Part shown: piece after piece, positions 35,489-37,272 of the stretch | How positions within the stretch are numbered: the stretch's first letter is position 1 | How the letters are laid out: every line of letters begins with the position of its first letter | NCBI RefSeq assembly: GCF_000730165.1 | Contig: NZ_CP022111.1 | Span: forward strand, 806,001 to 870,000 | Origin: Nitrospirillum viridazoti CBAmc | Lineage (GTDB): Bacteria > Pseudomonadota > Alphaproteobacteria > Azospirillales > Azospirillaceae | Direction: 5' to 3' | Length of the DNA: 64,000 bases | The notes under the pieces: generated by a model | The model's input: only the letters and a program-made list of their open reading frames with translations | Database searches by the model: none | Told to the model about the DNA's origin: nothing | Made by a program: the position numbers and the translations under genes

Positions 35489-36835
35489 ATGCCTGTTACT
35501 TGGTCGCGAGCGGATGGTTCCATGTTCGGCGCCCAGCTGACCCAGATTATTGACGAGCATGAGCGTTGGCTGGCGGCCAAGCCGGGCGGGCGGCGCGCCA
35601 ATCTGGCGATGCTCATCCTCCGCGGTGTCGACCTGTCGAACCGCAACCTGTCCCGCGCTCAGTTGGCGGGGGTCGACCTGTCCGGCGCCATCCTGACGAA
35701 TTGCCGGTTGGAGGGGGCCGACCTTTATGGCGCCGATCTTACGGATGCCGACCTGACCCAGGCCTGTCTGGCGGGGGCGGACCTGCGCGGCTGCGCCTTG
35801 AGGGGCGCCCTGCTGGACCGTACGGATTTGCGCGGTGCCGATTTACGCTCCAGCGACATGTTGATCGCGGTACCGGATTCCGGGGGGGAAGGCGAGGGGG
35901 CGGCAGAGGTGCCGCGGTCCGGCCAGGGCATCGTCTTCCGCCAGGCCCACCTGGGTCGTGCCCTTCTGGTGGGGGCGCGCCTGTCCGGCGTGGTCATGCT
36001 GGAATGCGACATCACCGGCGCGGTGTTGCGGGGCGCCGACCTGCGGGGTGCCGACCTCACCGGTTCCGTCCTGCGGGAGGTGGATTTGACTGGCGCCGAC
36101 CTGAGCGAGGCCAACCTCACGGCCGCCCGCCTCAGCGGCGCCCTGCTGGTGGGTGCGCGGCTGCAGGGCGCGCGCTTCGCCGGTGCCGATCTCGTCGGGG
36201 TGGAGTTGGACCATTGCGACCTTAGCGAGGCCCTGCTGGATGAAGCGCGCTTCTCCCGCCCCCTCGATTCGCTGGCCCTGGACATGCGCCATCGCGTGCA
36301 CGACCACGAACGCTGGATAGACAGCGGTGGTGCACGCGGCGCCCGTGCCGAGTTGGAGGGCGCCAATCTCGACGGCGCCGATCTGCGCGGCGCACGGCTA
36401 TCCGGCGCCACCCTGCGCGGCGCCCATCTGCGGGGCGCCCTGCTGGGCGGCGCCGACCTGACGCTGGCCGATCTGTCCGGTGCCGACCTGACGGAGGCCA
36501 GCCTGCGTGGCGCCGTGCTGCGCGGCGCCACGCTGGGTCACGCCCGGCTGGCGGGCGCCGACATGGCCGATGCCCGCCTGGACCCCGCGGATATCCTGCA
36601 ATCGGACGGCCATCCCAGCGGCCGGTCATGGCCCGCTGACCTGACCGGCGCCAACATGGCCCGGGCCAGCCTGTGGCGCGCCCAGCTGCAATACGCCAAC
36701 GTCACCGGCGCCGACTTGCGCGGCGCCGATTTGGCGCAGGCGGACACCACCGGCGTGCGCTTTGCCGACGCTCGCCTTGACGGGGTGGTGGGTCTGGATC
36801 GGCCCGAGCTGTCGCCGTCGGCCCGGGTGGGCTGA
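35489..36835 (+). CDS. Pentapeptide-repeat protein with two duplicated blocks
   Basis: A 448-residue soluble protein dominated by A(D/N)LxG pentapeptides, which fold as a right-handed quadrilateral beta-helix. There are two blocks, about residues 45-240 and 290-445. Each is preceded by a similar cap: [18 protein letters not shown] near residue 20 and [19 protein letters not shown] near residue 275, so the protein looks like an internal duplication of cap plus helix. Pentapeptide proteins of this length include gyrase-protecting DNA mimics (Qnr/MfpA) and scaffolds; the many Arg and Asp residues on alternate faces do not decide the matter. A second in-frame ATG at 35522 is a possible start. Confidence 0.85.
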
Positions 36836-37029
36836 AACCGGTCTCGGCACGCTTCCCGAACCCTTGCCCACCTCCGTCCCGGGTCATAGTGAACCGGCGC
36901 CTGGCCAGTACTCTTGGCCGGTATTACTCACCCAAACCGCATAGACCGAATTAATGGGCGCTAAACGAAGCGTCTTTGATTACGGTCCCCTCTATCAAGT
37001 CGTCCATGGGAAGCGGGTGGGAGCGTTAG

Positions 37030-37272
37030 ATGAACGATCGACTAAAGCCGGAATTGCGGGAACTGGCGGTCAAGATCGCAACGTCATATGCCCGGTCCAA
37101 TCCCGTCAGTGTCGAGGCGCTGCCGTCGATTATTGTGATGGCGTACCAGGGGCTTGAAGCCTGCATCGCGCCGCCGCCCCCGCCGCCGCCCGAGCCGGTG
37201 AAGCGCGGCCGCCGTGGTGCCAAGGCGGCCCCCAAGGCCACCGGCCGCGGGCGCAAGGCCGCCAGCCGCTAA
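37030..37272 (+). CDS. MucR/Ros-like N-terminal domain with basic tail, no zinc finger
   Basis: An 80-residue protein. Residues 8-42 (ELAVKIATSYARSNPVSVEA then LPSIIVMAYQGL) match the N-terminal dimer/oligomer domain of MucR/Ros regulators, in which the pattern is (E)LTAxIVxAYVxxNxVPxxxLPxLI. The C2H2-type zinc finger that normally follows is missing. Instead there is a proline run (PPPPPPPEP) and a strongly basic tail with GRR and TGRGRKAASR, resembling an AT-hook or histone-H1-like tail. A GGGAG ribosome site six bases before ATG 37030 supports a real gene. It could modulate full-length MucR by hetero-oligomerisation or bind DNA through the tail; this is inference. Confidence 0.75.
   Translation: MNDRLKPELRELAVKIATSYARSNPVSVEALPSIIVMAYQGLEACIAPPPPPPPEPVKRGRRGAKAAPKATGRGRKAASR

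Follow-up and report, generated by a model that had tools for sequence, protein, structure and literature searches.

The gene at 37030..37272 (+) of the window, a 64,000-nucleotide stretch of Nitrospirillum viridazoti CBAmc DNA, encodes an 80-residue relative of MucR without a zinc finger. In alphaproteobacteria, MucR is regarded as the equivalent of H-NS, with the zinc finger as its defining feature. We read the protein as a branch of the Ros/MucR family that has lost the zinc finger and serves as a minimal H-NS-like DNA-binding protein, at a probability of about 0.5, and we infer that it binds DNA and oligomerises. Its N-terminal domain would form ring- or horseshoe-shaped assemblies, as that of MucR does, and about a dozen flexible, proline-linked tails would project from each ring. 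The avidity of the tails would offset a weak single contact, and the resulting particle would coat or bridge AT-rich DNA and lower transcription. Below, "short gene" and "short protein" refer to this zinc-finger-less 80-residue MucR relative and its orthologues, "family" to the Azospirillaceae genomes examined (n = 82) and "genus" to Nitrospirillum (7 members).

The short gene is an intact reading frame

The host genome comprises 7.38 Mb in four contigs, and the short gene lies on the 2.0-Mb contig. Its reading frame is intact, running from an ATG through 80 codons to a stop at exactly 37030-37272 (+), and an in-frame TAG immediately 5' of the ATG makes a longer frame impossible (80 residues from stop to stop). 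A GGGAG ribosome-binding site at 37019..37023 (+) lies 6 nt 5' of the ATG and has identical bases in 7/7 aligned genus members, which bears out the good ribosome site of the original prediction. We dismissed an overlapping ORF at 36954-37157, the frame of which is broken by indels within the genus and the ATG of which is gone in one relative (L039). An origin from a phage or other mobile element was likewise discarded, as a relative of the short protein was absent from the viral contigs searched with a narrow pattern step. The short protein had no match in a plasmid search, in which records near the window may be missing.

The N-terminal half corresponds to the MucR oligomerisation domain

By profile comparison, residues 6-48 of the short protein are homologous to the N-terminal oligomerisation domain of MucR/Ros. 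A profile built from the 26 orthologues aligned with a MucR profile over residues/columns 6-48 (hhalign, 96.8%, E 2.5e-10), the MucR side consisting of seven proteins, five from the same genome, one of which lacks helix 1, and two related ones. The single sequence matched Pfam ROS_MUCR (PF05443) at E 0.0065 and 16.9 bits, under the curated cut-off of 25.4; PF05443 was matched at E 0.05 or better by 19/26 orthologues, and an NCBIfam search with the short protein returned nothing. In the opposite direction, the short-family profile picked up MucR N-termini in its own genome (E 7.9e-6 and 1.6e-5). It matched in 59 genomes of a class-wide sample of 385, comprising four family members with the short gene and 55 of the other 381 genomes.

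The AlphaFold2 monomer consists of two helices, residues 5-23 (37042..37098, +) and 28-46 (37111..37167, +), with block-mean pLDDT values of 96-97 over residues 11-40. The same modelling of a full-length relative of MucR encoded on a viral contig gave helices at 9-26 and 31-47 with less confidence (helix pLDDT 88); in the available text of PMC11662661, the model published for MucR has them at 3-28 and 33-55. The N-terminal half is therefore predicted to fold like the MucR domain; the match that the original prediction had placed at residues 8-42 holds in both profile and modelled fold. No significant match was obtained when the model was compared with the PDB by Foldseek (best E 3.1) or when the short protein was searched against the sequences of solved structures (best E 0.86). 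These nulls are little informative because a full-length MucR of the same genome matches only the Ros DNA-binding domain there.

Residues L36, L39 and I40 of MucR are described as needed for oligomers (available text of PMC6250670 and PMC11662661). Counting from a conserved Tyr, these places are taken in the short protein by L31, I34 and I35. They are hydrophobic in 26/26 orthologues (L/F/I/V, V/L/I/M and I/F/V, respectively), often with V or F in place of L or I.

The whole orthologous clade lacks the zinc finger

No zinc-finger-type DNA-binding domain is present in the short protein, and PF05443 was found in its genome only at sites other than the short gene. A six-frame script that looked for a MucR-type zinc-finger word found none at 44 short-gene loci with 1.5 to 9 kb of flanking sequence, at a sensitivity of 25/29 known MucR loci with 4 missed; on this result we rejected a finger displaced into a different frame close by. 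All 26 orthologues were found without a zinc finger, an architecture that the original prediction had suggested seeking in Azospirillaceae, and the copy in the window is accordingly not the lone truncation of a family whose homologs all carry one. In the remainder of the class, finger-less copies were sought and rejected: each of the 29 outside-family loci inspected (L056-L081, L109-L111) has a MucR zinc-finger region, called by the script in 25, separately in L065 and by eye in L066, L075 and L109. The frames of L109 and L110 stop early, within or just past the zinc finger. Class matches beyond these 29 loci lie in frames of 136-251 residues.

Orthologues occur in 26/82 family genomes and 6/13 genera, namely all 7 genomes of g1, 11 of g12, 5 of g7 and single genomes of g2, g9 and g13. 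The short gene was called at a match of at least 74 bits; the next match scored 38.9 bits and lies in a 170-residue frame, and the sub-threshold matches L033, L034 and L105-L108 are zinc-finger MucRs. It was not found in the other seven genera, including the 45 genomes of g11, which is probably Azospirillum. A search at the level of the order drew on the identical 82 genomes and yielded nothing more.

The 26 short proteins grouped as one clade in a domain tree of 67 rows (support 100/98, from a bootstrap not yet converged), and a second tree, without the longest branches, recovered 25 of these as a clade (100/99). Both trees rest on only 48-51 columns and omit L082, L083, L108 and L110; the second also omits L034, L112, L127, L134, L135, L138, L141 and the G018 short protein. 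The sister group in the 67-row tree consists of full-length g11 MucRs together with L034 (96/99), a placement supported at 91/17 in the second tree. This difference in support, together with the few columns, leaves the parent lineage unsure. Three g11 MucRs of the sister type have neighbours in common among themselves and none in common with short-gene loci, so theirs is not the short-gene locus in a form that still has the finger.

Summed pairwise counts among the 7 genus members show purifying selection on the reading frame, strong in the domain within the genus: dN/dS was 0.122 for the whole short gene and 0.045, 0.133 and 0.274 for the domain, the proline part and the tail, respectively. 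A decaying or chance remnant of mucR without function might be suspected from the loss of the zinc finger and from a Pfam score under the cut-off. Such a remnant would hardly combine a domain dN/dS of 0.045 with a single clade in 6 genera, a conserved upstream element and shared neighbours, and we consider it barely credible. Truncation or pseudogene status was rejected on the same orthologous clade, selection and shared neighbours. One frame that does look like a mucR remnant is L006 (G000:C2:1658246-1658383), which has 76 residues and only a C-terminal ROS_MUCR match and lies 3.7 kb from a full-length MucR.

Gene neighbours and a conserved upstream element

Neighbourhoods were compared for 7 of the 11 g12 loci, 2 of the 5 g7 loci, the g9, g13 and g2 loci and the window. 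An acyl-CoA dehydrogenase and an ECF sigma factor lie beside the short gene in 10 loci (g12, g9, g13, g2), and YjbH, a PepSY-like protein or a transglycosylase occurs in varying subsets of those 10 loci and both Skermanella loci. Directly upstream of the short gene in the window is a 448-residue pentapeptide-repeat protein (35489-36835, +), and a pentapeptide protein of 48% identity lies near the short gene in Skermanella. Among the neighbours, this protein alone connects the window with the other genera, and a single, vertically inherited locus is for that reason likely from the gene order, if short of proven.

The YjbH exopolysaccharide protein was located near the short gene in L042 (2513-4297), L051 (1985-4015) and L150 (5733-7487). 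YjbH matches were also present in 13/13 sampled g11 genomes, at 35-39% identity over part of the protein. Since MucR/Ros regulators elsewhere bind upstream of an exopolysaccharide gene, according to the available text of PMC9779718, YjbH is a candidate target.

Upstream of the short gene, a block at 36932..36987 (+; alignment columns 101-156) has a mean pairwise identity of 95% among the 7 genus members, compared with 51% further up. Within it, at 36933..36951 (+) and 78 nt 5' of the ATG, lies a conserved element (CRAANNNYATAGRYC...). The form C[AG]AAnnn[CT]ATAG[AG][CT]C was present at no more than one mismatch in 20/26 short genes, spread over several genera (16 without mismatch), 76-128 nt before the chosen ATG in a search of the 160 nt preceding the start. 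Shuffled upstream regions gave a mean of 0.005 of 26, a control that flatters the element, which was defined on the same sequences as were counted. It is absent from the five Skermanella short genes and from the G018 short gene. A stricter form occurred in the 7.38-Mb genome as one exact copy and two copies with one mismatch (control 0), and exact matches among 162 loci were only at short genes. A scan for sigma-70 promoters and terminators and an Rfam search returned nothing at the element. The element is probably a promoter or operator of the short gene, possibly an autoregulation site or an unusual promoter. One of the single-mismatch copies (L162, G000:C2:889432-889450, minus strand) lies 226 nt before a 103-residue ORF with hydrophobic stretches and is a possible second target.

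The proline run and basic tail

A run of seven prolines (residues 48-54; 37171..37191, +) joins the domain to a basic tail (residues 58-80; 37201..37269, +). The tail has pLDDT values below 50 over residues 63-80 and, on the model, is probably disordered from residue 63 on. It contains two RGR cores, at residues 59-61 (37204..37212, +) and 73-75 (37246..37254, +). These are followed by R and K (RGRR and RGRK) rather than by P and so depart from the canonical RGRP core; in one genus relative (L010, the same gene as L039) the residue after the second RGR is P. The original prediction had called the AT-hook match loose, which is apt for the copy in the window, and canonical RGRP is found in some relatives. 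According to the available text of PMC4466236, Lsr2 and Bv3F of low-AT genomes have RGR as their AT-hook-like motif, and the corresponding motif of HMG-I(Y) is R-G-R-P.

To gauge chance occurrence, the 26 tails were clustered to 17 non-redundant ones, each of which was shuffled starting at the first K or R. RGR was present in 12/17 tails (shuffle mean 2.92), GRP in 8/17 (1.30) and RGRP in 6/17 (0.32), and in each case 0/5000 shuffles reached the observed count, although the tails are related by descent and the shuffles overstate their independence. In having an RGR core beyond chance in its putative DNA-binding part, twice in the window copy, the short protein is like the Q/RGR silencers. The five tails without RGR are L020, L024, L025, L026 and L030, of which L025 and L030 have GRP; the core is therefore common and not obligatory. 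Tail length after the Cys varies from 22 to 91 residues, and the tail, which diverges faster than the domain, may act as a non-specific polycation.

This variability and the low prediction confidence of the tail would also suit an adaptor, in which RNA, protein or membrane phospholipids, not DNA, are the ligands of the proline run and basic tail, and the MucR-like hairpin only gives multivalency. The presence of YjbH, a PepSY-like protein or an ECF sigma factor beside the locus in several other genera makes envelope or stress roles possible. We regard an adaptor as improbable, in that the excess of RGR and RGRP over shuffles points to AT-hook chemistry and not to plain basicity, and the Ros/MucR proteins studied in the literature examined, as far as its text was available, are DNA-binding proteins.

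Short basic arms are also present at the C-terminus of full-length MucRs, and 7/31 non-redundant arms contain RGR (shuffle mean 1.31). For this reason, only part of the original proposal that the proline run and basic tail replace the finger stands: the finger is absent, and its replacement is doubtful. The tail may plausibly be a MucR arm kept after finger loss, which we do not claim and which the alignments do not demonstrate; only 1/30 local alignments of short tails with MucR arms beat shuffles at p <0.05. Contact of the C-terminal basic arm of MucR with the minor groove has been put forward as speculation (available text of PMC5693944). Among IMG/VR viral contigs we observed 32 full-length or partial MucR relatives (L112-L143), two of which (L133 and L139) have KRGRP in the C-terminal arm; phages or prophages may thus carry MucR-type silencers.

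Interface residues and the MucR companions

Several residues of the domain set the short proteins apart, as judged from counts in which several MucR rows start at an ATG inside helix 1, so that their first residues are missing (as they are in the trees). Cys45 (37162..37164, +) is invariant in 26/26 short proteins, at a position that is mixed in MucR, where Leu is commonest (14/41). Ala13 is likewise present in 26/26, at a place where 31/41 MucRs have Thr. The places of MucR Val22 and Val26 are Ala in 25/26 (Ala17) and 17/26 short proteins, respectively. Both valines are named as necessary for helix packing, and in MucR2 of S. meliloti oligomers are blocked by a Val-to-Thr change elsewhere or by an N-terminal extension, either being sufficient (available text of PMC13297338). 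Ring formation by the short protein consequently cannot be assumed from homology. Its own residues at packing positions argue somewhat, at the level of sequence, against free mixing with MucR.

The partners for such mixing are always available. A zinc-finger MucR above the Pfam cut-off was present in 82/82 family genomes (best E 1e-49 or better), at least one in each and hence in all 26 with the short gene, so the short protein is no replacement for MucR there. The genome of the window has four full-length MucR copies, a fifth without helix 1 (L005) and one fragment. L005 (G000:C1:2490398-2490724) keeps the zinc finger and lacks oligomerisation helix 1 (profile 18-123), the opposite shortening to that of the short protein.

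The main rival to our reading starts from this constant company. The short protein would enter MucR rings as a modulator and lower or retune the number of zinc-finger domains per ring, as H-NST does with H-NS, and the tail would tune the mixed ring or hold it near DNA. Retention of the oligomerisation triad is in keeping with such a role, and silencers truncated to their oligomerisation domain are known as dominant negatives (H-NST, truncated H-NS acting on StpA and truncated CgpS; available text of PMC7074111). Nevertheless, Ala17 (25/26), Ala13 (26/26) and Cys45 (26/26) suggest that the short protein packs with itself, and the short gene is missing from 56/82 family genomes, all of which have MucR. 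The RGR enrichment of the tail would be needless in a pure antagonist, though H-NST too binds some DNA, as stated in the same source. Weighing these points, we think a modulator rather unlikely; the Ala/Cys interface changes favour the minimal H-NS-like protein, and the constant presence of MucR leaves room for the modulator.

Discussion

The minimal H-NS-like reading can be taken a step further, albeit only tentatively. The short protein would then be a MucR-ring scaffold with disordered AT-hook tails, its own conserved operator and, through the Ala/Cys interface, its own ring specificity relative to the MucRs of the same cell. As part of the same tentative proposal, it would represent a third route, beside H-NS and Lsr2, by which an oligomerisation domain is joined to an RGR minor-groove motif, in this case via loss of the finger.

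The short protein has counterparts in several known systems, none of which it fully resembles. With the Ros/MucR proteins (MucR, Ros and the Ml proteins) it shares the two-helix N-terminal domain, as seen in profile, predicted fold and hydrophobic triad, and a basic C-terminal end; it differs in lacking a zinc-finger-type domain, in its length (80 residues versus about 140-160) and in having an invariant Cys45 and, at the Val22 position of most MucRs, an Ala. Ml5 of Mesorhizobium loti is zinc-independent as well, but retains a folded, metal-free DNA-binding domain (available text of PMC11662661 and PMC9779718), which the short protein does not have. MucR2 and MucR3 of S. meliloti are also divergent paralogues beside a classical MucR, with changes affecting oligomerisation; both retain the zinc-binding DNA-binding domain, however, according to the parts of PMC13297338 available.

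Similarly, H-NST is an oligomerisation domain without a folded DNA-binding domain that has a full-length relative in the same cell. It is a relative of H-NS found on genomic islands (PMC7074111, available text), whereas the short gene occupies a seemingly vertically kept locus and its product has an RGR tail. H-NS, Lsr2, Bv3F and HMG-I(Y) have a Q/RGR or RGRP minor-groove motif, joined to an oligomerisation domain in H-NS and Lsr2. They belong to different families, and the motif of H-NS and Lsr2 lies in a folded domain, in contrast to the predicted unstructured tail of the short protein.

No zinc-finger-less Ros/MucR protein was found in the open-licence literature searched, including the available text of a 2022 review (PMC9779718) and of PMC13297338. 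Within the same literature, MucR was connected with AT-hooks only through the basic arm of full-length proteins (PMC5693944, available text), and nothing was found on MucR in Nitrospirillum or on zinc-finger MucR in Azospirillum. What was found for an alphaproteobacterial AT-hook nucleoid-associated oligomerising protein is, by title, on other subjects.

In a conserved and selected clade with only the oligomerisation half of MucR and an RGR tail, nature would have uncoupled the two activities of MucR. The short protein would allow a direct test of whether simple tails on MucR rings suffice for organising DNA, and would also test minor-groove binding by the basic arm of MucR, as speculated in the available text of PMC5693944. 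It would, in addition, give a natural H-NST-like modulator to be sought in MucR networks.
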